Shown here: one piece after another, positions 32,966 through 48,600 of the stretch
Layout: every line of letters starts with the position of its first letter
How positions within the stretch are numbered: the first letter of the stretch is position 1
NCBI GenBank assembly: GCA_016200145.1
Contig: JACQFH010000079.1
Location: 1 to 50,391 of the forward strand
DNA length: 50,391 nucleotides
Origin: Planctomycetia bacterium
GTDB lineage: Bacteria > Planctomycetota > Planctomycetia > Planctomycetales > Planctomycetaceae
Direction: 5' to 3'
The notes under the pieces: generated by a model
What the model was told of the DNA's origin: nothing
The model's database searches: none
What the model saw: only the letters and a program-made list of their open reading frames with translations
Program-made: the position numbers and the translations under genes

Positions 32966-33055
32966 GGAGAGGTGGCAGAGTGGTCGAATGCACCGGTTTG
33001 CTAAATCGGCATCGCGGGTAAACTGCGATCGGGGGTTCGAATCCCCCCCTCTCCG
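32966..33055 (+). tRNA. tRNA-Ser (GCU anticodon)
   Basis: Cloverleaf by eye: acceptor GGAGAGG (32966-32972) pairs with CCTCTCC (33048-33054) plus discriminator G; D-arm GGCAGAGTGGTCGAATGCACC; anticodon stem CCGGT/ATCGG with loop TTGCTAA, anticodon GCT at 33000-33002; long variable arm typical of serine tRNAs; T-arm GGGGGTTCGAATCCCCC. CCA is not encoded. The gene lies immediately upstream of a tyrosine recombinase gene, so its 3' end is a likely attachment site. Confidence 0.95.
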
Positions 33056-33066
33056 CTCGCCTGACT

Positions 33067-33098
33067 GCCCATGAGCCATAAGTCTTTGGCTCATGGGC
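33067..33098 (+). terminator. Strong hairpin after tRNA-Ser
   Basis: GCCCATGAGCCA - 8-nt loop - TGGCTCATGGGC, a perfect 12-bp stem 11 bp after the tRNA. It is followed by a modest T-rich stretch (TCTGCATTTCT). It probably ends tRNA transcription and insulates the recombinase gene; alternatively it belongs to the recombination site. Confidence 0.6.
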
Positions 33099-34473
33099 GT
33101 CTGCATTTCTGAAGTGTCCTCAGAGAGTCCCGATCTGGTACCTCTGCTATCACGAACACGGCCGCAGGCGACGGCCACGGGTTGGCCACGAGAAAACTGC
33201 CGCCGAGCAGTTGGCTGCCCAGATCAATGCCCAGTTGCTGGTGGGCGCGCCCGCCGCGCTCAGCTTTGAACCGGTCTCAGTCTTGGAATTGCGACAGCGC
33301 TGGCTGGACCACCACGAGCAAATCCTGCGATCGTCAATTCAGACGGTGAATCGATATCGGACGGCCACCGAGCATCTTATCCGGTTCTTCAACGACGGGC
33401 GGGGAACGCTGTCAACAGCCCATTTCCAGACGATGCATGCTGAAGCCTTCGTGCGGTATCTGCGCGGCATCAAGGTGGCCCCTAACGGGCACCGTAATTC
33501 GAAGAAACGACCGCTGCTGGATAAGGGAATCCAGTACATCCTGGAGGCGTGTCGGACGATGTTCAGCTATGCGCTTAAGCGGCGGCACATGCCTCCATAT
33601 TCCGACAATCCCTTCGCGGCACTTCAACTCGAGAAGATGCCAATCGACCACTGTCGCCCGGTCGTCCTGCTGACACCGGATCAGGAGCGGGAATTCCTGG
33701 AGGCCTGCGACGAATGGCAGTTCCCGATCTTTGCGACACTTCTCTTCACGGGAATGAGGCCAGGGGAACTTACTCACCTGCTCCTTCCCGACGACCTCGA
33801 CCTGGAGCGGCGCCTGATCTTCATCCGCAATAAACCGCGATTGGGCTGGAAGGTGAAAACCCGAAACGAGCGCGCGATTCCGCTGGTCGAGCCGCTGGTC
33901 GATCTATTGCGGATCACATTGGCGGGGCGATCGACGGGCCCGGTATTCCTGCGACGGCGGTTCTCCCTGGACCATCTGCCACTCCTCACAGGAAAAGTCG
34001 CTCGGTCACTGGAGGCCGAAATCGAGCGCCGAATCGAAGAAGCCGGCCCGAATGCGAATCAACCCCTCAGTCGGACCGCGATGGCTGCCATTTCACGCGG
34101 AGTGTGGCGCGACGCAGGCGCGATCAAGACCGACAGGCTCAGATCGGAATTCATGTCGCTGACGGCGGACATCGGACTTCCGGAGTTGACCTGCGCGAAG
34201 CTTTTGCGCCATCAGTTCGCGACCTGCCTGCAAGACGCCAACGTCGATCCGTTAATTCGCAATGAACTGATGGGCCATTCGGCGGCAGGCACCCAGTCAG
34301 GGATCGGACTTGGAATGACAGGCGTTTACACGCACACGCGATTTGTGACGAAGCGAAGACAGTTGGAATCGGCATTGCTCGGGCGAGACGCGATGGCTGT
34401 CGTGATCCGCTGGCTCGAAACACGCCGCAACGGGGTCGCCGAGCCAGCGTCAAAGCTGCCGGATAGCCGTTGA
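33082..34473 (+). CDS. Tyrosine recombinase/integrase (Int1)
   Basis: Integrase, probably of the element at the tRNA-Ser gene. Catalytic residues: Arg in 'FTGMRPGELTHL', a Lys in 'VKTRNERAIPL', box II 'KLLRHQF' (the H/K-x-x-R variant with Lys), His in 'ELMGHSA', nucleophile Tyr in 'GVYTHTR'. The SAM-like N-terminal DNA-binding segment is 'LRQRWLDHHEQILRSS'. The first ordinary start is a TTG at 33211 (420 residues), but the frame stays open back to 33082 and includes 'PIWYLCYHEHG', an N-terminal motif of planctomycete integrases, with no ATG, GTG or TTG to start it. The 5' end is therefore uncertain or truncated. Confidence 0.85.
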   Translation, partial: VFGSWASAFLKCPQRVPIWYLCYHEHGRRRRPRVGHEKTAAEQLAAQINAQLLVGAPAALSFEPVSVLELRQRWLDHHEQILRSSIQTVNRYRTATEHLIRFFNDGRGTLSTAHFQTMHAEAFVRYLRGIKVAPNGHRNSKKRPLLDKGIQYILEACRTMFSYALKRRHMPPYSDNPFAALQLEKMPIDHCRPVVLLTPDQEREFLEACDEWQFPIFATLLFTGMRPGELTHLLLPDDLDLERRLIFIRNKPRLGWKVKTRNERAIPLVEPLVDLLRITLAGRSTGPVFLRRRFSLDHLPLLTGKVARSLEAEIERRIEEAGPNANQPLSRTAMAAISRGVWRDAGAIKTDRLRSEFMSLTADIGLPELTCAKLLRHQFATCLQDANVDPLIRNELMGHSAAGTQSGIGLGMTGVYTHTRFVTKRRQLESALLGRDAMAVVIRWLETRRNGVAEPASKLPDSR

Positions 34474-34980
34474 TCGCGACAACGCTGGAACAGTGAATCG
34501 CTCAGTCCAGCGTCTCACTGCACGCCCTTCTGCTACGAAGGCGGCGGGTGCTCCAAAGGAACGTCCAGCTGGGAATGGTGACTGAGCGTCGGCTCTCCCG
34601 CTTGCCGTCTTGCGTCATTTGTATTTGTTTATAAATATCTAAATATTACTCAATAAAGAGGCATATATAGTAGAGGGAGAAAGCATAGTCATCCCCGAAA
34701 TTGTTCCGCCCCGCCCATCTTGCCTGCAAGCGGGAGGGTGAGGAATTCCATTTAGCTGTCGCGAATGCGGCATTCAGAAAGGAAATCTCGCCTGCTGCCA
34801 CTGCCCGAAATTCGCTGATGTTTTGCCGCCCCACGCAATCCTGCGTCGGTGCCGTCCATCGCGAAGGCTGGGTAGCCTGATGTCCACGAAATTGTTTCCG
34901 TTATGTCAACGGCTCGCGCACGAGCGATCTCCACAGATCGCCTCCGTGCGCGGGGGCGATCATCCTCCGAAGGATTCGCC
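34474..34980. other. AT-rich spacer and leader hairpin inside the cassette
   Basis: About 500 bases with no gene. At 34,614-34,690 is an AT-rich patch (TATAAATATCTAAATATTA) that contrasts sharply with the GC-rich surroundings. At 34,915-34,952 a long hairpin, CGCGCACG-AGCGATCT / AGATCGC-CGTGCGCG, ends 28 bp before the start codon at 34981. The AT patch may be a recombinase or replication-associated site; the hairpin may control the sigma-like gene. Confidence 0.55.
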
Positions 34981-35634
34981 ATGAACAGTCTTAGTGTTTC
35001 CGTGTCGCCCGGTCCTTCCCTCGAGGCCTGGCAGCAGCTCTTCCTGGTCCACGTGCTGCCTGTCGTCAATGAACTGTCCCGTTTCCGGTTCCGCAAACTG
35101 CCGCGGTTTGAACAGGAGGAAGCGACGGCCGAGGCAACGGCCGGCGCCCTGGTCAGCTTCCTCCGTCTAATCAAGCGGGGCCGCCGTCCCCACGAATTCG
35201 CGTCTCGCCTGGCGCGGTTCGCCATCTTGCGCGTGCTCGCCGGCCGACTGGCGAGTACTCCCGACCGTAGCCGGGACGTGCTGTCGCGCTTGGCCCGACA
35301 ACGCCGTGCGATTTCTGTCCAGAGCCTCGACGCAGACGCGACCCATGCAGAAGTCGGTTGGCAGGCCATGCTGATTGAGGATCGGCGGAGTACCCCGGCG
35401 GATGTGGCGGCGAGCCGGATCGACTTTGGCGACTGGCTGTCTGGGATGACCCCCCGTCGCCGGAAAATCGCCCGGATGCTGGCTGACGGCTACAGGACCG
35501 AAGAAGTGGCCGAGCGATTCAACCTGTCGCACGGCCGCATCAGTCAGATGCGCCGCGAATTCGAAGCGTCGTGGCACAACTTTCAATCGGACGATGACGC
35601 CGGCGCAATGTCCCGTCAGCAGGCGGCCGCCTGA
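34981..35634 (+). CDS. Sigma-factor-like/HTH regulator
   Basis: 217 residues from the ATG at 34981 (AGGA ribosome site). The layout resembles ECF sigma factors: an N-terminal helical region with 'EQEEATAEATAGALVSFLRL' (region-2-like) and a C-terminal region-4-like HTH, 'RRKIARMLADGYRTEEVAERFNLSHGRISQMRREFEASW', at about 160-198. Region 2 is degenerate, so whether it is a true sigma factor or a DNA-binding regulator is open. It lies between a recombinase and a TOPRIM-like gene on the same strand and probably controls the cassette. Confidence 0.65.
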   Translation: MNSLSVSVSPGPSLEAWQQLFLVHVLPVVNELSRFRFRKLPRFEQEEATAEATAGALVSFLRLIKRGRRPHEFASRLARFAILRVLAGRLASTPDRSRDVLSRLARQRRAISVQSLDADATHAEVGWQAMLIEDRRSTPADVAASRIDFGDWLSGMTPRRRKIARMLADGYRTEEVAERFNLSHGRISQMRREFEASWHNFQSDDDAGAMSRQQAAA

Positions 35635-35691
35635 GAAGAGTCGCCTCCCCGCATCACCAGCTTTGCCCCCTTTTCCAAAGAGGACTCTCCA

Positions 35692-36387
35692 ATGATTCTC
35701 GAATCTGTCGAACCGGCTCCCGACGATCGATCTCACCCTGGTCACGAGGTTGTCGGTTGTCCCCGATCTCTTCTCCGGCGAACGGTGCGGCTGATCGTCG
35801 TCGTTGAGGGAGGCAACGACATTCGTTTTCTCAAGCGGATCAGCCTGATCTTGAATGCCGCGGATCCCGAACTGCCCGATCTCAAGGCGCTCGAACATGC
35901 CGGCCAATTGCTGTTCCTGCCGATGGGTGGAAGCAACGTTCGGTACTGGACCGAGCGCCTGGCCGGGCTCGGTGTGCCCGAGCTCCACCTGTACGACCAC
36001 GAAAGTGTACCGGAGTATTATGAACGGCAGGCCCTGGCTGCACTCGTCAACCTGCGTCCGGCCTGCCGCGCGTTCGTTTCGTCGAAGCGGTCGCTCGAAA
36101 ACTATCTCGACCGGCAGGCCATCCGCGAAGCGCGCGGAATCGATGTGGAATTCGGCGACCACGACGATGTGGCGCAGATCGTCGCCGCCAGGTTTCTTGA
36201 GAGTCGGGGTGGTCCAGAGTTGCCCCGGCTTCCGTCACGGGCCAGGCGGCGCCTTATCGGTTCGGTCAAAGGCTGGCTGAACACGGAGGCCGTCGACCGA
36301 ATGACCGCCCAGCGGCTGGCGTCCCGCGATCCGACCGGGGAAGTGCGGATGTGGATGAAGGCGATTCTGAAGGCGACGTCCTGCTAA
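35692..36387 (+). CDS. TOPRIM-like protein (OLD/DUF4435-like)
   Basis: 231 residues. 'RLIVVVEGGNDIRFLKRI' at 33-50 has the Glu motif of TOPRIM nucleases; 'ELHLYDHE' at 97-104 supplies the D-x-E pair; 'SKRSLENYLD' at 131-140 resembles the 'KREIENYL' motif of stand-alone TOPRIM/OLD-type nucleases. No ATPase domain is fused. It is probably a nuclease or nicking-type enzyme of the mobile cassette; a defence role is possible but unsupported. The ATG follows an AGGA site. It converges on the AAA+ gene with a 55-bp gap. Confidence 0.6.
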   Translation: MILESVEPAPDDRSHPGHEVVGCPRSLLRRTVRLIVVVEGGNDIRFLKRISLILNAADPELPDLKALEHAGQLLFLPMGGSNVRYWTERLAGLGVPELHLYDHESVPEYYERQALAALVNLRPACRAFVSSKRSLENYLDRQAIREARGIDVEFGDHDDVAQIVAARFLESRGGPELPRLPSRARRRLIGSVKGWLNTEAVDRMTAQRLASRDPTGEVRMWMKAILKATSC

Positions 36388-36442
36388 TGGTGTCGAACTC
36401 CTCCGTGGCGGCCGGAATCTCCCGCCCCAGGCTGCGTCATTC

Positions 36443-37408
36443 TCAGCCGGCGCGCCTGGCATTTCCGGTCGGCACGGATTCCTGCCTTGATTCTGCCAGT
36501 CGACGGAAATATGCGGACTGGCTCTTTCCAGTCCGCCGATGCCATTCGGCAGCCCGTTGTGGCAAAGTCTCGAAATTCGAAGCGATTTCAAGTGCGATTC
36601 GTCGTTCGGCCTGCATCTGCTCGGCCCGTGTCAGATCCTTGGTCGGGTGCTCCAGGGCCACCACCTGCTGCTGAACGCTGCTGCGGACCAAGTCGTGCCA
36701 GTCGGTCTCCGTCAGCCCGGCGGCAAACAACCGATAATCGGGGATGGCCTTGTCGACAAACAGCCGCAGCGAGGGCCGAAGTCCCAGCCGCTGTGCTTCG
36801 CCGATCACGAACTCGGCGACCATCCGCGCATTCTCCGGAGAGACGCCGGGCATGCCGCCGTCAGCCAAATGAAAGATCAAGGAACAAATCTGCGCGTCCG
36901 ACGGTTCGTACTCGACGACGTTCATCCGGTCACGAAGCGCCTGGAGCACGGCACCGTGATGACCGATCAGAGGCAGGTTGGCGATTGCGATGATGCCCCC
37001 AGTGAAGTGGACAAGCCGGTCCCCCTTCGCGGTTTTGTAGCGTATCGTTCTCGTGTGGGATCCGTTGTGTGGATTGCCGATGGCGGAGAGCAGCAGCTGC
37101 AAGGCGATCGGCTGACCGAAGATCGACGTGATGTCGTCCAGGACGATCACCCGGTCTCGGTTTTCCGAAATCAGTTCGAAGAGGCCGATGGGAGTCAGAT
37201 GGCCGCTGGCGAAGGCATAACTCACGCCCAGCTTGTCGAGCGTCGAACGGACGGTGTACGTCTTCGAAGTACCGGCCCGACCGAAGAGGTAGAGCCCATT
37301 GGCGTGGCGATGGATCACTCCCCGTACGCGGTCTCGGATCAGTTTGAGCTGTTCGCACAATTCCTCGTAATGGCTGTTTTGTGGCACGGCCGTCTCCGTG
37401 TTTCTCAT
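36443..37408 (-). CDS. AAA+ ATPase, mobile-element type
   Basis: 321 residues. Walker A 'GRAGTSKT' at 43-50, Walker B 'VIVLDD' at 87-92, sensor-1-like 'IIAIANLPL' near 140, and an arginine-finger-like 'LRDRM' near 165. The N-terminal part is a short helical region and the C-terminal 120 residues are a helical lid. It resembles DnaC/helicase-loader and plasmid/phage ATPases. It is probably co-directional with Int2 (upstream at 37520-39046, gap 111 bp) and may serve replication or target selection of the element. Confidence 0.75.
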   Translation of the reverse strand: MRNTETAVPQNSHYEELCEQLKLIRDRVRGVIHRHANGLYLFGRAGTSKTYTVRSTLDKLGVSYAFASGHLTPIGLFELISENRDRVIVLDDITSIFGQPIALQLLLSAIGNPHNGSHTRTIRYKTAKGDRLVHFTGGIIAIANLPLIGHHGAVLQALRDRMNVVEYEPSDAQICSLIFHLADGGMPGVSPENARMVAEFVIGEAQRLGLRPSLRLFVDKAIPDYRLFAAGLTETDWHDLVRSSVQQQVVALEHPTKDLTRAEQMQAERRIALEIASNFETLPQRAAEWHRRTGKSQSAYFRRLAESRQESVPTGNARRAG

Positions 37409-37519
37409 TTCTCACTTTCTCACTTTGATCGAGTGCGAACGTACCCAGGACCAATCGCTCGCCGAATGCCTGCGTCGCTCTCCGATCGCCTTCAGCACTT
37501 CGAACGATAGACCATCTCC

Positions 37520-39046
37520 TTACGAGCCTGCCTTCGGCTCGGCTTCGATTGTCGGAAATCCCAGTTCGTCGGTGCGCCGCGACACCGCTTCGACGAGCGG
37601 CTGGAACACATGATCGACGGCCCGCCGGTAATGGGCCTGCAGGTCGTTGAGGTGCGAGTAGGCGCTGATCGCCGCGCGGCTGGGTGAATGGCCCATGAGG
37701 TAGCGCCGGTAGAATTCGGGCATTCCGGCGTTTTGCATAAGCGTGCTGAACAGGTGGCGGAAGTCCTTCAGTGTCGCTACGGCGGGCCAGTTGAGATGCC
37801 GTGCCAACCGCTGAAATTCATGTTCAATGTTGTCGTACTTGAGAGCGCCCGCGTCGTGCAGGATCTGATCGCGAATGGCCCGGCGAGTTCCTGCCGAGGC
37901 CGATTTGCCTGCTTGGACGCGCGCATCGAAGGCAGCCACCACACGATGCAAGGGCGCGTGCAGGAGCGGAGGCTTCTCAGTTCCTTCGACGACGGCGCGC
38001 CTCATGAACAGCAATCCCTGCTCCCCGCCGCCCGGGTGCGGGGCGAGTAATCGCGCTAGCGGTCCGATCACCGGAAACCGCTTGTCGCGCCGCCCCTTCG
38101 TGAAAAGGTCGAGTTCGGCAATGCACAGGACATGGAGCCAGGCGTCGTCCACGTGCTCCTGAAAGATGCTGCAGGGTTCGGCAGCGCGAAGACCGCAGAA
38201 CATGAGCGTGGCGAACAGAGGCAACTGAAAGCGATCGCACGCCAACAGGAATTCAGCGGCCATCGCGGTCGTGACGTCGGGCTCTCCGAACAGAAAATCG
38301 CGGGCCGGCTCCCGGCTCTGGCGCCGGCCGCCGAACGGATTGCGAAAACCCGAACCGAAGAGCCGCCCGCGGTCGGGATCGGCGCCCCAGCTGAACATGC
38401 TCCTGACGACATTCTCGACGTACCGGCCGGCCATCATCGGCCGGCGTTCGGCGCCGGCATGGCCGTTCGGAGAGATTCGCAGGTTTTTCAAATAGGCACC
38501 GAACTGCAATGCGAAATCCCGATCGACCTGCGTCGCCGAACGATAGGCCGCGCTGACGTGCGGCTGCTCGACAAAGGTAACGTAATGATCCAGTGCCGAC
38601 GCATACCGCCGGACGGTCCGGGGATCGATTTCTCCGGCGTCGGCGCGGCGACTTAGGTCTTGAGTAAACCGCTCGACGAGCTCGCCGTGCCGAACCCGTC
38701 GGGGACCCTCACCCGACTGCCGGAATTGTTCGAGCCGTTCTTCGATTTCGCGGGCCCGCGAAATGGCCGCCACGAGATCGCCATCCACCCGGGCGGAAAG
38801 GTTTCGGCCTGCGGTCCGGTCCCACCACTGTAATATATAGTGATCCCTCCGCTGATAGATCCGAACCCGTTTCGGGCCGGCAATCCCAGTGGGGAAGTCG
38901 GCGACCCGCCGCCAGCGGTGTTTTTCGCCGTATCGTTCAGCCCACGACCGGGGTGCTGCCGCTTCGTCCCCGTCCCGGTCCGGGTCGACGGCCAGACGTC
39001 CTTCTGCACCCTGTGAATCCATGTTGCCAGTCCGGTCTGCAGACAC
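37520..39046 (-). CDS. Tyrosine recombinase/integrase (Int2)
   Basis: Up to 508 residues; a start at 39022 ('MDSQGAEG') is possible. Catalytic residues: Arg in 'FCGLRAAEP', Lys in 'FTKGRRDKRFPV', box II 'TLKDFRHLF' (K-x-x-R variant), His in 'YLMGHSPS', Tyr in 'ISAYSHLND'. It shares with Int1 the blocks 'NPF', 'DAGA-K-D...EF', LMGHS and the Lys in box II, so the two look like divergent paralogues. It faces inward toward Int1 around a three-gene cargo. An N-terminal acidic leader and 'RRVADFPTGIAGPKRVRIYQR' resemble an arm-binding extension. Confidence 0.85.
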   Translation of the reverse strand: MSADRTGNMDSQGAEGRLAVDPDRDGDEAAAPRSWAERYGEKHRWRRVADFPTGIAGPKRVRIYQRRDHYILQWWDRTAGRNLSARVDGDLVAAISRAREIEERLEQFRQSGEGPRRVRHGELVERFTQDLSRRADAGEIDPRTVRRYASALDHYVTFVEQPHVSAAYRSATQVDRDFALQFGAYLKNLRISPNGHAGAERRPMMAGRYVENVVRSMFSWGADPDRGRLFGSGFRNPFGGRRQSREPARDFLFGEPDVTTAMAAEFLLACDRFQLPLFATLMFCGLRAAEPCSIFQEHVDDAWLHVLCIAELDLFTKGRRDKRFPVIGPLARLLAPHPGGGEQGLLFMRRAVVEGTEKPPLLHAPLHRVVAAFDARVQAGKSASAGTRRAIRDQILHDAGALKYDNIEHEFQRLARHLNWPAVATLKDFRHLFSTLMQNAGMPEFYRRYLMGHSPSRAAISAYSHLNDLQAHYRRAVDHVFQPLVEAVSRRTDELGFPTIEAEPKAGS

Positions 39047-39206
39047 GCGTCCCGACTCGTCGCGCCGGTGACCATCACCTTGCGCTCCGACGGAATCTAG
39101 CGTGACAGCCGACGATCACACGGCGCTCACAACTCGGGCAAATATCTGTGATCGCCCCAAAAAAGTGCTGTCGACTTGCCGGCCTGCGTCGCGGATAATT
39201 CGCCGT

Positions 39207-40574: not shown

Positions 40575-40893
40575 CGCGCCCTCAAATCCGATCGCCGCCT
40601 CGATGCGCCACAGCCACATGCGCGACATCAGGTGCGGCTGGCCTGCTCTACGCGCGGCAAACTCGGTGACGGCATTTGCCGCTCTGACGGGCAGCCCGGC
40701 TCATCGCCGTCCCATCTGCCGGTGATTGCCAGTCCGGCGACGCCGTGCCACGTCGACCGCGGCTTGGCACCATCGACGTCTTTTCCAGGAATCACACTGA
40801 ATTCTCATTCGTGTGATCGTGGTGTGATTCCCCCCATCTACCGTCGAGGGCCGTGGCAGATCACTGCGCCCTCGACTTTCACGGAGGCTCGCA
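40575..40893. other. Gap with operator-like repeats before the recombinase operon
   Basis: About 320 bases without a gene. The GGAATCACAC...GTGTGATTCC dyad at 40,788-40,831 is described separately; a strong GGAGG ribosome site follows for the gene at 40894. Nothing else is recognisable. Confidence 0.5.
40788..40831. promoter_or_regulatory. Inverted repeat with three ATCACAC/GTGTGAT motifs
   Basis: GGAATCACAC (40788-40797) is the perfect inverse of GTGTGATTCC (40822-40831), 24 bp apart, with another GTGTGAT at 40811-40817 in direct orientation to the second. It lies 63 bp before the start codon of the recombinase operon and is a plausible operator, or the crossover region of the serine recombinase. 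Confidence 0.55.
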
Positions 40894-41220
40894 ATGATCA
40901 GCCAGAACCCAAGTTCGAGTAGTCCCCACGGTCAACCCGCAGGATGCCGATCCTCAAGCCCGAATTCTCCAGCGACGTCCGGCCCGAACGGCCAGGTCGA
41001 CCGACAACGATGGGCCCAGCTCATCGCCGACGGCGAGATTCCGTTCCCAGTCGGGCTCAGCGCGCTGGACGAACAGGCGCTTGTCGGAGAGGTGGCCCGT
41101 CGGCGCCGTGCCCGGCTGCTCAAATACATCGCGTGTCAGATCGCCCTGTCGATCAAACGCAGTCTCGCATCTGCCGCGCTGGAGAATCCCGATGATCAAG
41201 AACAGCTTCAACCCAAATGA
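40894..41220 (+). CDS. Small leader protein of the recombinase operon
   Basis: 108 residues, after a strong GGAGG ribosome site. A Ser/Pro/Gly-rich disordered N-terminal half, then a charged helical half ('LSALDEQALVGEVARRRRARLLKYIACQIALSIKR'). No known family. It overlaps the serine recombinase gene by 29 bp, so translation is coupled. It may be a partner or regulator of the recombinase; no HTH is evident. Confidence 0.6.
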   Translation: MISQNPSSSSPHGQPAGCRSSSPNSPATSGPNGQVDRQRWAQLIADGEIPFPVGLSALDEQALVGEVARRRRARLLKYIACQIALSIKRSLASAALENPDDQEQLQPK

Positions 41221-42424
41221 GTGCCATCCTTATGTCCGTTACGGACGCATGTCCGATCCGTCGCAGAACCCGCGAAGTCCTGAGCAGCAGTTTGCCATGA
41301 TCGACGAAACGCTGCGGCGGGTCGGATTTCCGTGGGTCCATGTGAGGGATTATCGGGACGACGGAATCACCGGGCGACTGATCAACAAGCGTGCCGGCTT
41401 CAATCAAATGTTAAGTGACATCAAATCCGGCATTCTGCAGGTCGATCTGATCCTCGTGGACACTTACGAACGGTTCGGCCGAGCCGAAGAACTTCCCGCA
41501 CTGCGTCGCAGGCTCTACAACCGTTTTGGAGTTTTGCTGCTGACGGCCGATTCCATGTTCTGCGATCCGACGACCGTGCAGGGAAAGGCCCTGGCGATGG
41601 TCGAGGCGATCCGTTCGACCGAAGACGGCCGGATTAAGGCGCACAACGTCATCCGCGGCAAAAGAGACGTCGCGCGGTTGAAGCATTGGCCGGGGGGAGA
41701 GCCGCCGTTCGGCTTCAAACTGCAGACGGTGATGTCCGACCGGAACGGTCGGACCGAGGTTGATTACTCGATCCTGGTCCCCAACCCGGAGACGTCCTGG
41801 ATCTTGCAGTTGATCTTCCGCACGGCCCACGAAAACGGGTGGGGAACCGGGCGTCTCGCCAAGTTCTGCAATGCCCACGAGGACATCCCGGCAACATTCA
41901 AGCCGTTTTACGCGGCGACGGTCGGCTACTGGTTGCAGAACCCGATTTACTACGGCGAGTTGCTGTGGGAGGCGCACAACACGGGGATCGTCGAGGACAG
42001 GCGGATCCGCGAGCGCAATGTCGAGGAGGACATGCTGCGGATTGCCGACTTCTGCGAGCCGTTGATCGCGCGGGAAATCTGGGACGCGATCCGGGCCCTG
42101 CGGCAGGAACGATCGGCCCGGATCAAGGCGGCTCGCGCCAGGAACTCCGATGCGTCTGCCAAGTTAATCGACGCGCCGGTTCCCGGCCTCGCGCTGAAGT
42201 ACCTGCTGACGGGCCTCGTCCGGTGCGGCCACTGCAACCGGGCCATGACGCCGTCGTCAACGCAGCCGTACACAACCCAGGGCGGAACCGTGAAGCGGTA
42301 CGTCCGGTACGTGTGCCCAGGGTACCTCGAAGGCGCATGCCCCAACGGCACCAGGGTCTCTGAGGATTGGCTGCGTGAGCAGGTCGTGGGGACGATCCGC
42401 GAACGGCTGTTCCCCGGTTCGTAG
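41192..42424 (+). CDS. Large serine recombinase, catalytic and zinc-ribbon part
   Basis: 410 residues from the ATG at 41192 (GGAGAA site). The catalytic domain has the nucleophile Ser21 in 'YGRMSDPSQ', then 'DDGITGRLINKRAGFNQML', 'LVDTYERFGRAEELPALRRRL' and 'ALAMVEAIRS'. The recombinase domain follows ('GEPPFGFKL', 'NPIYYGELLWEAHNTG'), then a zinc ribbon ('LVRCGHCNRAM' and 'CPGYLEGACPNGTRV'). The protein stops just after the zinc ribbon; the coiled-coil region usually found there is encoded by the next gene at 42503. It probably performs site-specific integration or excision. Confidence 0.88.
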   Translation: MIKNSFNPNECHPYVRYGRMSDPSQNPRSPEQQFAMIDETLRRVGFPWVHVRDYRDDGITGRLINKRAGFNQMLSDIKSGILQVDLILVDTYERFGRAEELPALRRRLYNRFGVLLLTADSMFCDPTTVQGKALAMVEAIRSTEDGRIKAHNVIRGKRDVARLKHWPGGEPPFGFKLQTVMSDRNGRTEVDYSILVPNPETSWILQLIFRTAHENGWGTGRLAKFCNAHEDIPATFKPFYAATVGYWLQNPIYYGELLWEAHNTGIVEDRRIRERNVEEDMLRIADFCEPLIAREIWDAIRALRQERSARIKAARARNSDASAKLIDAPVPGLALKYLLTGLVRCGHCNRAMTPSSTQPYTTQGGTVKRYVRYVCPGYLEGACPNGTRVSEDWLREQVVGTIRERLFPGS

Positions 42425-42502
42425 CCCATTTGCAACTTGTGCCGGCCGGCGTCGCCGGCGCTCATCCTTACGGTCAACAACAAATTTCGGGGGATATTCG
42501 AC

Positions 42503-43549
42503 ATGGACGTGAAAGATCTTGAATCGAACGCGTGGTTTCGGCCCCTGCTCCAGGACGTGCAGCGGGAATTCGATCGCCTGATGCTCGCCGAGCACGACCA
42601 GCGTCCCGCTCTGCAGCAGGAGCTTCAGGCACTCGAGCGCAACATCTCGGGGTGGTCGGCGTCGCTGGCCAATCCGTCACTGGGCGCCGCACTGCGGCTG
42701 GCCATCGAGGTGGACTGGGAACAGGCGCTGGCCCGCAAGCAGAGAATTGAGCACCAGCTGGAGGGCCACGACCGACGGCTGACGTGGTTGCGTTCCCTGC
42801 TCGATCCGCAAAAAGTTGTCGACTGTCTCAATCGGCTCGATGACGTGTTGGGATCTGCAAACGCGACGCGGGGGAACCTCGAGCTCTCACTCCATATCGA
42901 CTCCATCGCCTGCTTTTCGGACGGGAAGGTCGTGATGCGGACTTCGAAGCTCGGAGCGCTGGCGGGCGTGGCGGGGATTCTGCGGGATCCCGGGGTTGAA
43001 ATTGAAAGGGATGAGGAGGACTGTGCAGGCAAAACGGCATGCCACCAGGCAACTCCCCGCCGCAGGCAAGTCCTGCAGGTGGACAGCCTGGATGGCCAGG
43101 GCGACGAACTGGAAGCCGCGGCCCACTTGGCCGCTGATCCGCGCCGGTTTGCAGGACTGCCCGAAGACTGGTTCTGGGAGGACGTGTTTCAGATTCCGCG
43201 GCGGATGTGCTGGTCGGAGCAGCACGCACTGGATGTGGCCGAATATCGTCTGCTGCACCGTGCGTCGATCAAGAACACGGCCGCTCATTTCGACAAAGCC
43301 CCGCAGACCATCCGGGAGGCACTCAAGTGCGCCCAGGCGCACGGGATCGACGCGACCGGCGAGACGATGAACCTGCCGCGCAGCCACGGCTGGGCGATTT
43401 CCAACGCGGCCGACGTGCAGGCCTTCGTCATCGCCCAGGGATGTACTGAGGGAGAAGCTGCCAGACATTTCGGCGTCTCAGAAACCACGATTGCCAGGGC
43501 TTTGAAACACGCCGGGTCAATGCCTGCGTCAGAATCAGATGCCGAATAG
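42503..43549 (+). CDS. Split C-terminal half of the serine recombinase, with HTH
   Basis: 348 residues from the ATG at 42503 (GGGGG site). The first part is a helical/coiled-coil segment ('LQQELQALERNISGWSASL', 'RKQRIEHQLEGHDRRLTWLRSLLD') and 'LSLHIDSIACFSDGKVVMRTSKLGAL', matching the coiled-coil and following strand region of large serine recombinases. It starts 78 bp after the catalytic gene. The second part adds two helix-turn-helix-like segments: 'NTAAHFDKAPQTIREALKCA' and 'GEAARHFGVSETTIARALKHA'. It may act in trans to complete the recombinase and bind DNA. Confidence 0.72.
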   Translation: MDVKDLESNAWFRPLLQDVQREFDRLMLAEHDQRPALQQELQALERNISGWSASLANPSLGAALRLAIEVDWEQALARKQRIEHQLEGHDRRLTWLRSLLDPQKVVDCLNRLDDVLGSANATRGNLELSLHIDSIACFSDGKVVMRTSKLGALAGVAGILRDPGVEIERDEEDCAGKTACHQATPRRRQVLQVDSLDGQGDELEAAAHLAADPRRFAGLPEDWFWEDVFQIPRRMCWSEQHALDVAEYRLLHRASIKNTAAHFDKAPQTIREALKCAQAHGIDATGETMNLPRSHGWAISNAADVQAFVIAQGCTEGEAARHFGVSETTIARALKHAGSMPASESDAE

Positions 43550-43781: not shown

Positions 43782-44015
43782 ATGCGGATTATGATTCCGG
43801 ATGTCGATCTCTGTAACGACAAGTGCAGCAATGAGTTACAAAATCTGAATCATGTGGCTTGCACGCCGGCTTGCACTGAAAAGCAGAGCGGGGGAGGGGA
43901 GAGCCTGCACCGTGTCATCGATGCGTGGTCATTCTTGCCGGAACACGTCCGCCAGGCAGTTCTGCTGATCGTCGAGTCGGCGGCGGATGCAGTCGGGAGG
44001 GCTCGGCATGAATGA
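43782..44015 (+). CDS. Small protein coupled to the Replic_Relax gene
   Basis: 77 residues; an alternative ATG is at 43791. Cys-rich N-terminus ('DLCNDKCSNELQ...CTPACTEK'), then a helix ('SLHRVIDAWSFLPEHVRQAVLLIVESAADAV') of the type seen in small planctomycete element proteins. The stop overlaps the next start (ATGAATGA), so translation is coupled. No family recognised. Confidence 0.6.
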   Translation: MRIMIPDVDLCNDKCSNELQNLNHVACTPACTEKQSGGGESLHRVIDAWSFLPEHVRQAVLLIVESAADAVGRARHE

Positions 44016-45012
44016 CCATCAGGCCCGGCCGCTTCGCAAGGTTTCGCTGAGTATTTGGGACTTGCCGGCATCACTTCTGACGCAACCGCACAATTTTAGG
44101 CGGCGGATGCCTAAGCGGGGGAGGGAGCGATCGCACCAGATGGCGATCTTGGCGTTCATTTACCGGAATCGGTTCGTGACGGCTTCGCAAGTGCGACGAC
44201 GGTTCACTGAGATCCTGAAGTCCGATCGGACGACACGCCGTCATCTCGCGGAAATGCAAGAATCGCTGAAATATCTCGATCTGGTGCCGACGCCTTCGCC
44301 GCTGTGGCCGAAAGTCTATTCAGTGTCATCACGAGGGATGCGAAAGCTGACCCAGGCCTTTCGGAAGAAGCGGTCTTCATGGCAGCCGCCGGCCGGCGAA
44401 CGAGGGAGGACGGGATTTTCGATCCATCATGTTTACCACGAACTCGCCTGCACGGAGTTTCTGCTCGACGTCTGCGAAGCCGCGAAAATGACAGGTGCTG
44501 AAGTGCTCGAATTGCAACGGCGGTCGCTCGTGAAAAACGACGCGTTCCGCCTAACATCAACATCGGGAACACGATTGGTCCCTGATGGAATGTTGCTGTT
44601 ACGAACGAGTCAAGGGATGATCTGCACGTTCGTCGAGGTCGACACTGGATCGATGTCGATGAATTCTATCGCCGACAAACTGCAGCGGTATTCGGATTGG
44701 AGTGCCTCTGATCATGGGCAGACTTACGTCTCAGACTTGTACAGAAAGCACGGGGCGAACAATCCTCAGTCCAGATTTCGAATCGCGATCGTTTGCAGCA
44801 ACAGCCATCACACTACGAACGGCCAGCGACGCCTTCAGGCGATACTGGGCCTGGCAGATTCTTTACCGCCGTCGATTCGGAGAAACGTTTGGCTGACCAC
44901 GGCTGCTTTGGTTCGAGATGCGGGGAATATTCTGGCCTGTGCGATCTGGTGTAGAGCCAAAGGCGGCAATGCGGGCCAGCCATTTCTTCACCGACTTCCC
45001 GGGTCAAATTGA
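44008..45012 (+). CDS. Replication-relaxation-like protein (Replic_Relax)
   Basis: 334 residues from the ATG at 44008, with a GGGAGG ribosome site. The N-terminal winged helix ('QMAILAFIYRNRFVTASQVRRRFTEIL...TRRHLAEMQESLKYLDLV') and the middle block 'SIHHVYHELACTEFLLDVCEAA', 'LVPDGMLLLRTSQGMICTFVEVDTGSM' fit the Replic_Relax family found on plasmids and integrative elements, whose members are thought to help relax DNA for replication. It supports the view that the region is a mobile element. Confidence 0.72.
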   Translation: MNDHQARPLRKVSLSIWDLPASLLTQPHNFRRRMPKRGRERSHQMAILAFIYRNRFVTASQVRRRFTEILKSDRTTRRHLAEMQESLKYLDLVPTPSPLWPKVYSVSSRGMRKLTQAFRKKRSSWQPPAGERGRTGFSIHHVYHELACTEFLLDVCEAAKMTGAEVLELQRRSLVKNDAFRLTSTSGTRLVPDGMLLLRTSQGMICTFVEVDTGSMSMNSIADKLQRYSDWSASDHGQTYVSDLYRKHGANNPQSRFRIAIVCSNSHHTTNGQRRLQAILGLADSLPPSIRRNVWLTTAALVRDAGNILACAIWCRAKGGNAGQPFLHRLPGSN

Positions 45013-45615: not shown

Positions 45616-48600
45616 TTATTGGGGCACGCCCGCAGCACCCAAAACCGGTTTGCAAAAGCCGTCCGCGATGCAAATCTTCACAAGTGCGTTCTGTTGTCCA
45701 TATATACATTCGCAGAATGCCTTGCAATCTAGATTAAGTTGGTCTGCGTTTGGAGAGGCCTCACCAGGTGGAGGTCCGTTGATCCAGTTGTTCACGTTAT
45801 GAAGGAAGGTGCTAAGCTCCGTGAAGCAGTCGGATTTTCCCTGCGGAGTGCGGCAGCCACCAACGGTCCCAAATGACATCCAGTACGAGCACCTGGTGTA
45901 GATATTGAACCAGTTGTTAAGCGGTTTGTTTGCGGCACAGCATTCGTTGGCGGCGATGGATAGATTTTCAATCGTCAGCTGCTTCCCTGCCGGAATCTTG
46001 CAGGAGTGCGGCTCCTTCCGAGTTTCCGGGCCGTAGCCAAAACCCACGCAGTTGGTGCAAAATCTATCAAATGTACAGCAGACATCAAATGTGAATTCGA
46101 TCGGCTTCGGGGGAGCAGGTTTTGCAGCTTGGTTGCCAGAGGGGTCGGTCAAGTTGATCGAACGTGACATGACATATTGATACATGGAGTCCCCGAGTTG
46201 TCGACTCAGGGAATCCCTGCTTAGCCAGGAACCGAGTTGAATGTGAAGTAATCTATTTCTTGCTAAGTAAAGGCCGACATGGGGATCGAACCGATATCCG
46301 CAATACAAGGTCTCGAATGCATAGAATGACAGCAAAGTGTCGACAAATGAAGAGGTCATAAAGCCGGTGCTGCCATAAGCGGAATAGTCGTATCGTTCTT
46401 GAATGTCGCCAGCTGCGTTTGCGCTGACGATAACATTCCAGTTCGGATCCTGAAACGCAAACAGCCGTTCAGTTAGAGTTCCAGCGCCGTTCGGATCGCG
46501 GTCTCGCAAGAGCAAATCGTCAATGTAGCGTCTACCCCAGACGAACTGGCAGTTCGGCGTCGTCAATACGCCGATCCGTTCTTCAATTGTTTGCCACGCG
46601 GCGGTATAGATAAAATGGCGAGTCTCCGACAATACTCCCGCCACGAAACCATTCCGGATGGTCCGATAACGGCGGCCGTCATAAGCGTTCGTCTGCACCG
46701 TATTTCCCGAATGATCGACGAGCTTAACCAGCCGGGTCCAAGCGTCGTAAGTCGCAGTGTAGGCCGCGGTGGGTGTCGCCGGCTGTGGCATCGTCGTCAT
46801 GTTGCCGGCAGCATTGTAAGCCGGTTGTGTCCAGGCTGATCCGACTGTGTTCGTGATCGCGGTGATCTCGTTTACCGTGTTCGCCGACCGGTTCTGAACG
46901 AGATCCCAAAATCCGCTTCCCGTGTCATCCTCCCGGAAGTTCCGCCAGTTGCCCGTGCTGTCCAAACTCCAGCACTGGGCGAAATCCGGATTCTGGATTG
47001 CCGTCTGCGAGAAGTTCAGCGTGCCCCGCTGCATGCTCTTCAGTCGATAGAGCCCGTCATAAGAATACAACTCGTCGAATTCGGCGCCGTACGCCTCTGC
47101 GACGAGGTCTTTCCGCCACAGGCGATTTCCCGAGCGGTCGTAGCCATGCTGGATGCGAACGAGGTTCGTGCCGGCAGCTGAGCTGCTGCTCGATGAGCTT
47201 GATGAGGAGCCGGCCATCGGAACCCAGGTCAGGTCTGTGACCCGGCTGAAACGATCGAGTCCGCGGTAAATGTCACCGGTGTCGGGGTCGTTTCCACCCT
47301 GAATCCCGACGAGTGTATATTGGATTCCAGGTTGAGGCTCGTTGAATTGGACAATACTGTTCCGTCCAAGATACGAGTAGTCCGCCAAGTGCGTGACGCC
47401 GTCATGATCGATGAACGACGCGATCCGCGAAGCCGAATCGTTGATGCCGCCGGAAGTACCATAATCGTAATTGAGGAGCCGGCCATTCGGGTAGGTCATT
47501 GACGTCGGGCGAATCGTATTGGCTGACCCGTCCGCATGAGCGTACTGGACTTTCGGGGTGCTCGCCACGTTCACGGCTCCCGAATGTGATTGGTACTCGG
47601 TGACCAGCTGGCCGAACGTATTGTACGTCTTCTGCACGTCGTTCACAACGTTTCCTTGGCCGACGGTGGCGTTGTCGTAACTCGTGATGTTTTGCACGAG
47701 TCCGCGGACTTCGTAGGTCTTGCTGATGCGGAGGACGGCGGTGTCCACGCCAGCCCCCGCGGTCGTGATGCGATCCGCAGTCTGCCGGCCGAGCAAGTCG
47801 AAATCGAACGAGTGTACGGTACCGTTCTGGTCGGCCAGCGTCGTGACCTGAGACTGCCGGTTGTAAGTGAACGCTTTCTGGTCACTGCCACCGACCGAAT
47901 CGGGATAGATTTCGTAGCGCTTCAACAGGCTGCTGGCGATCGCCGAGTCGGAGAGAGTCGTGCCATACTGGTACGTCGTTGTCTGGTTGCCGGTGGTCGC
48001 GTTGACGGCCGAAATCGTGGCCAAAACACCGTCAGCCGTGAAGGTGAAAGTCGTCGTCCGGTTCTTGTCGTCACTTGCGGCGCATGAGTTCGAACTGCTG
48101 CTCGACGACGAGCTGCTGCTCGTTGCGATGTAGTTCTCGATGAGTGTGAGCCGTCGGCCGACGTCATCAAACGACTGGTAGGTCACAGTCCCGGCGGTAT
48201 CTGTGGCCAGATAATCTTCGCCGCGCGCGTTGAACGTGGTCGAGTTGACCAGGCAGATGTCGGAGCGCGCCGGAATTGTCGCCGAGCGAGTCAATGCGAT
48301 TCCGCCGTTCGTGCCATAGTCGGCTGTGGCGACAGGTCGGCCGAGCGCGTCGAAGTAGATTGCCGAATACGTCACGCGAGAGTGTGGTGTCGTCGACGGA
48401 TCGCCGAGCGCGCTAAGCTGACTGGCGGCGGCATTGTGGTAGCGCAGACGCTGCGTCGTCTGGATGCCGTTGTTGGCGGCATCATATGTCGTTTCCGTTT
48501 GTTCGAGAATCACGTCATTGGCGACAGAGAAAATGTCGGCATAGCTGGCGTCAGTACCGTATCCAGTGTATTTGACGGCATCGCGGCCGAGGCTGTCGAT

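Follow-up and report, generated by a model that had tools for sequence, protein, structure and literature searches.

Genes and features of the tRNA-Ser locus

The window, i.e. the whole stretch of 50,391 nucleotides analysed here (contig JACQFH010000079.1 of the Planctomycetia bacterium assembly GCA_016200145.1, forward strand), carries next to a tRNA-Ser gene two tyrosine recombinases, Int1 and Int2, which face each other across three cargo genes and are followed by a regulator gene, a small gene, a large serine recombinase and a helix-turn-helix (HTH) gene (Table 1). This arrangement was found to represent a conserved order, tRNA-Ser / Int1 > [cargo] < Int2 / regulator > small gene > large serine recombinase > HTH gene, and hence the conserved unit does not end with Int2 at 39046, as an earlier sequence-only reading of this DNA had assumed, but continues to 43.5 kb.

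Both Int1 and Int2 match tyrosine recombinase profiles (Pfam, PHROGs, NCBIfam), share 30% identity over 326 residues (blastp, E=8e-35) and have the LMGHS, DAGA..K, NPF, R and Y boxes in common. In a tree of 56 sequences they form two sister clades, each with support of 100/100, so that their description as divergent copies of one recombinase family is borne out. Relatives were surveyed by similarity searches and by a scan with an Int2 alignment, covering one genome per species of 84,980 species; for ten loci the underlying genomes were checked as well. Inward-facing Int1/Int2 pairs were identified at 23 distinct loci across Planctomycetota (the window, G004, G005, G011, G083, G098, G104, G143, L128, L129, L133-L136, L139-L141, L144-L147, L149 and L151), with no other orientation among them, which extends the head-to-head layout first read from the window to all 23. 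The named hosts are planctomycetes by label, one being labelled only 'bacterium', whereby labels of metagenome bins may be wrong. For the 13 complete pairs the distance matrices of Int1 and Int2 are strongly correlated (Mantel r=0.89, p=1e-4), and in G004, G005 and L102 the stop codons of both genes overlap. A regular occurrence of either recombinase alone had been named beforehand as speaking against a paired system, and here the outcome is divided: eight of the 12 Int1 genes without a visible Int2 form a clade of their own (100/100) with different arm repeats in a similar layout, the other four fall among or beside paired ones (the contigs of L104 and L106 being too short to judge), and among the loci surveyed no contig of sufficient length showed an Int2 to be alone. 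By its sequence, Int2 is an old paralogue of Int1, inherited together with it and always facing it.

Table 1. Positions of the features at the tRNA-Ser locus of the window.
Feature	Position	Strand	Basis or remark
tRNA-Ser(GCT)	32966-33056	+	ARAGORN; integration target
attL core GAATCCCCCCCTCTCCGCT	33039-33057	+	tRNA 3' end plus 1 nt
Hairpin immediately inside the left end	33067-33098	+	probable terminator, taking the place of the tRNA's own
Deletion scar, 3 nt replacing 118 nt	33133-33135	+	comparison with contig C510 of the same genome
Int1, tRNA-Ser-type tyrosine integrase, 5'-truncated	33136-34473	+	Pfam, PHROGs, blastp against Int2, comparison with C510
Cargo: sigma-70-like HTH protein	34903-35634	+	NCBIfam sigma70-ECF superfamily, E=4e-7, below the curated cut-off
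Cargo: TOPRIM-domain protein, OLD/Gabija/PARIS type	35692-36387	+	AlphaFold2 model, VIA-align
Cargo: AAA-type ATPase, weak match	36443-37408	-	Pfam
Int2, second tyrosine recombinase	37520-39046	-	Pfam, PHROGs, blastp, tree
Site A GTGAGCGCCGTGTGA, upstream of int2	39116-39130	-	direct repeat, 11-bp period
Regulator of family A, helical domain plus OmpR/GlnR-type winged helix	39207-40574	+	start 39207 inferred; conserved beside Int2
Site A GTGATCGTGGTGTGA, upstream of small gene and serine recombinase	40813-40827	+	equivalent gap in regulator-A loci
Small conserved gene preceding the serine recombinase	40894-41220	+	relatives equally placed in 12 other loci
Large serine recombinase	41192-42424	+	start inferred; Pfam Recombinase E=6e-13, zinc ribbon E=1e-12
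HTH protein, 3' of the serine recombinase	42437-43549	+	Pfam; conserved position

Directly past the conserved block, positions 43987-45012 encode a Replication-relaxation family protein (Pfam Replic_Relax, E=1e-18). Further on, a large protein with serine-rich runs and YD-repeat-like sequence is encoded on the minus strand (45616-50391) and continues past the contig end; just ahead of it the G+C content drops to 50%.

Attachment sites and island ends

Judged by its sequence, Int1 is built like an ordinary tRNA-Ser integrase of the heterobivalent lambda/Tn916 type. Insertion takes place at the 3' ends of tRNA-Ser genes with several anticodons, where the integrase adjoins the tRNA gene, and two of the islands, L108 (7.4 kb) and L140 (12.9 kb), each holding both Int1 and Int2, are bounded by 20-nt direct repeats of the tRNA end. 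The link of the element to tRNA-Ser, as proposed from the window alone, is supported for the family. These repeats start at GAATC in the tRNA T-loop, and the attachment (att) core of the window corresponds to them. For the window copy itself, a right-hand copy of the core was found neither in the window (allowing up to 4 mismatches) nor in the genome (up to 2); the one other copy of the core in the genome lies at a tRNA-Ser(GGA) on contig C510. The left end of nearly all paired islands carries three TTTGT(G/A)GC(G/A) arm repeats just ahead of int1, and at the right end of L108, L140 and G063 two arm repeats locate inside the island, at a distance of some 125-150 bp to the core. Such a plan of arm-type sites is usual for a heterobivalent integrase, as known from lambda and Tn916.

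Beside its tRNA-Ser(GGA), contig C510 harbours the Int1 5' region a second time. The first 103 nt, counted inward from the end of the tRNA gene, are identical to the window and are followed in C510 by 118 nt that the window lacks; these comprise three TTTGTGGCG arm repeats, the ATG and codons 1-24 of Int1. Measured against C510, the Int1 of the window has lost the ATG together with 24 residues, and none of the three arm repeats is left; its reading frame is open from 33082 to 34473 (plus strand). Int1 therefore does not simply start behind the tRNA gene, as had been read from the sequence alone, but is a 5'-truncated copy. As contig C510 ends inside int1, the Int2 side of that copy is outside view. 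The region represents the left part of a degenerate island copy, which probably is no longer able to move by itself because its Int1 is devoid of the N-terminal start and the arm sites.

The hairpin that follows the tRNA gene shows compensatory changes in 9 of 11 pairs across 16 islands and was considered as a recombination structure. However, a hairpin after tRNA-Ser is also present in G001, a genome of the same genus that lacks Int1 at this site, and most simply the hairpin is probably a terminator. In G001 the syntenic tRNA-Ser(GCT) and its upstream flank are conserved, but the sequence past the tRNA is unlike that of the window and hence does not constitute a clean empty site. Below position 3673 of L186 (G001:C650), the opposite strand after tRNA-Ser(GCT) reads like the end of a different serine recombinase. 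From the G001 sequence, the tRNA-Ser(GCT) site may be a hotspot for unrelated elements. In G063:C1 (995523-1027850; L105, L168 and L169) tRNA-Ser 3' ends are oppositely oriented with further att-core copies between them, which suggests islands inserted from both sides or in tandem.

The Int2-side module

The regulator gene, which adjoins Int2 divergently, belongs to one of two families (A and B) without detected similarity between them. In the model of the family A regulator the C-terminus matches the GlnR DNA-binding domain (prob 0.99, target TM-score 0.70, E-value not significant), and several family B members possess a cysteine-rich C-terminus; Foldseek alone returned nothing significant for the regulator model or for that of the TOPRIM cargo protein. 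The large serine recombinase was found beside Int2 in 18 loci, i.e. the window and 17 others.

Each regulator family goes along with its own DNA site. Site A (GTRA-N7-GTGA, a direct repeat with 11-bp period) was identified upstream of int2 in nine of ten family-A loci, and in the same position the 12 family-B loci without exception, and likewise L102 and L128, carry site B (GCGC..TGCCTA) in its place. The same sites recur upstream of the serine recombinase, where site A precedes the operon in 8/8 regulator-A loci tested and site B was found in 9/12 family-B loci. Chance occurrence of such a site amounts to about 0.3-0.5% per 300 bp, and the two copies of site A listed in Table 1 are the only ones in the 12.4 kb of the window that were examined. 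The kind of site upstream of Int2 and of the serine recombinase follows the family of the regulator encoded between them. These shared upstream sites speak for a putative common control, and the serine recombinase, as the third and unrelated recombinase of the islands, seems to be switched on together with Int2.

Cargo between the recombinases

The gap between Int1 and Int2 ranges from 0 (overlapping stops) to about 15 kb in L141 and about 17 kb in L139, and the cargo differs from island to island; in L140 it locates beyond Int2. The sequence-only reading had enclosed a sigma-like HTH, a TOPRIM and an AAA+ gene between the recombinases, of which the first two assignments hold, whereas the AAA gene is a weak match and lies on the minus strand, like Int2. 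The five genes had moreover been taken for one system; however, this cargo set was found in no other locus examined, and the recombinase pair exists without cargo or with unrelated cargo. A relative of the sigma-like HTH protein (57% identical) is encoded on contig C107 of the same genome, where relatives of both the sigma-like and the TOPRIM protein are found near an AAA gene of the kind known from ThiF/JAB/AAA-type operons; outside this genome, too, relatives of the two cargo genes neighbour such an operon. As a consequence, the cargo of the window resembles a fragment of a longer operon, together with an AAA gene that is separate from it. Relatives of this AAA gene occur in 16 of 99 genomes, the own genome included, but in the loci examined none lies beside Int1/Int2. 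ThiF, JAB and AAA genes belong to the cargo of L141, L142 and G104, and in L141 and L142 a TOPRIM relative resides within the cluster. Operons of ThiF, JAB and AAA genes with small conserved proteins and sometimes a TOPRIM gene inside were observed in L141 (11435-18322) and L103 (5416-15638), where they lie between Int1 and Int2 and resemble ubiquitin-like defence operons.

For the TOPRIM protein Pfam gave no hit, but its AlphaFold2 model (mean pLDDT, the predicted local distance difference test score, of 83) aligns best to the TOPRIM domains of OLD nuclease (Z 9.7) and GajA (8.5), with Z-scores of 8-9.7 over 134-167 residues and with all top rows being OLD or GajA (VIA-align). The predicted fold is the same as that of the TOPRIM proteins of OLD, Gabija (GajA) and PARIS; unlike these, the cargo protein is a stand-alone TOPRIM domain without fused ATPase. 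As regards an OLD/Gabija-type system, the nearby AAA gene sits on the other strand, the PADLOC match to GajA is weak (E=0.0065), and no system was named by PADLOC, PHROGs or NCBIfam.

A 38-bp motif, built around TGACACGTTT-N7-ATATTTAG, was encountered repeatedly close to integrase genes in several planctomycete elements (L109 at 8862; L128 at 11550 and 20718; G083:C1 at 4503851 and 4504177; L188; L189). Its position at the Int1/Int2 3' junction (L109, L128, G083, L134-L136 and L125) made it a candidate cassette recombination site; as a genome search found it also in promoter-like positions, it is taken here for a probable promoter of mobile-element genes.

Proposed roles and alternative explanations

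The best explanation of the whole, to which we assign an even chance, is a family of integrative islands in which Int1 acts at tRNA-Ser and a co-regulated module of Int2 and serine recombinase takes part in mobility. Here, Int1 very probably carries out recombination at tRNA-Ser and thereby integrates the island, the regulator would control Int2 and the serine recombinase together, and both of the latter may assist or control mobility, acting with Int1 in excision or transfer, for example within a mixed complex with Int1 or in a second step serving to resolve or rearrange the island. Going further, one may suggest a new element class, with an obligate convergent paralogous pair working on one tRNA att site and with Int2 and the serine recombinase co-induced by an exchangeable regulator; we consider this stronger version doubtful, but if true, mobility would be gated by two chemically different recombinases, a tyrosine and a serine enzyme.

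Several points weigh against a mobility module of this kind. The bounded islands L108 and L140 possess Int1 and Int2 without a serine recombinase of this family, which therefore is not essential. G063 and L110 belong to the paired Int1 lineage but show no Int2 over ~50 kb past Int1 and over 9 kb, respectively, and hence Int1 may work alone. Vertical descent with the hosts could contribute to the co-inheritance of Int1 and Int2, and the data give no sign that Int2 acts on the tRNA att site. Finally, the sites on the int2 side were first spotted by eye and then counted, so that only the serine-recombinase side of site A represents a prediction made first and then tested.

Alternatively, Int2, regulator, small gene, serine recombinase and HTH gene might form a nested second mobile unit fixed at the int1 3' end, with Int2 having no role at tRNA-Ser. 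Int2 does end at the int1 3' end, up to the overlapping stop codons mentioned above, some related Int1 islands are without Int2, and Int2 is accompanied by a regulator of its own. After such an insertion, the int1 3' end should be present again beyond the block, but no such copy was found in 15 loci, although decay could hide it; a longer match beyond the block in L129 turned out to be site B and not an insertion copy. As furthermore the Int1 and Int2 trees are strongly congruent and no Int2 was shown to lie without Int1, we regard the nested unit as unlikely, and for Int2 the role of a partner of Int1 is favoured over that of an integrase of a unit fixed at the int1 3' end.

Less probable still is an integron-like role of Int2, by which cargo would be inserted where the two recombinases meet, comparable to the cassettes of an integron integrase. 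It is exactly at this junction that cargo size changes between islands, and in L128 the 38-bp motif lies near both cargo ends, but this motif is absent from many loaded islands (the window, G104, L141) and is elsewhere found, promoter-like, upstream of xis-int operons and of a TOPRIM gene, and in L140 the cargo sits beyond Int2. A chance pile-up of unrelated recombinases, conceivable in that tRNA-Ser sites do gather several elements (G083 has tandem islands), is very improbable and largely refuted by the invariant gene order and orientation at 23 loci from many genera, by the congruent trees and by the shared control sites.

Comparison with known systems

Prokaryotic elements with tyrosine recombinases have been grouped as integrative and conjugative or mobilizable elements (ICE/IMEs), SEs, GInts, RITs and Tn554 (PMC10214605). 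By its att anatomy the island family fits the ICE/IME group, and its gene set and orientation set it apart from SEs, GInts, RITs and Tn554. With tRNA-targeted islands that depend on a tyrosine integrase it shares the tRNA 3' end as target, direct-repeat att cores, the integrase at attL and two-sided arm repeats; different from ordinary ones are the extra paralogous tyrosine recombinase facing the first and the serine recombinase with the same control site.

GInts, too, combine several tyrosine-recombinase-type genes at one island end with variable cargo, but are defined by the ginABCD operon of three recombinase-type genes and a small protein (PMC5385486), whereas here two convergent tyrosine recombinases and a serine recombinase are found. 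SEs likewise possess two tyrosine recombinases with catalytic residues, yet these belong to an intA-tfp-intB-srap cluster with imperfect inverted repeat ends and a 6-bp footprint (PMC9345347, PMC10214605), as opposed to the convergent genes, direct-repeat tRNA ends and other gene order and content of the present islands. Tn554, of which the element had initially been reminiscent, also has two tyrosine recombinases in one element, but is made up of a tnpA-tnpB-tnpC set with imperfect inverted terminal repeats (PMC10214605); as the islands have a convergent pair at 23/23 loci, end in direct repeats of tRNA-Ser and carry a regulator gene and a serine recombinase alongside, the likeness fails on target, layout and gene set. 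RITs have three tyrosine recombinases in a row, the islands only two, which face each other. In integrons cassettes are joined at recombination sites beside the integrase; here, a repeated 38-bp motif is present in some loci, with the behaviour of a promoter.

In the open-access literature no description of such planctomycete elements was found, an earlier description elsewhere being possible, and the tRNA-Ser island family apparently is undescribed. It may represent one route by which ubiquitin-like and other defence-like operons move among planctomycetes, and its defined DNA sites (att cores, arm repeats and two regulator-specific sites) make the division of labour between the recombinases directly testable. 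Elements with several tyrosine recombinases, i.e. Tn554, SEs, GInts and RITs, are still poorly understood, and to these the family adds a phylum from which no such elements were found described, a convergent paralogous pair and a serine recombinase sharing a control site with one of its members.

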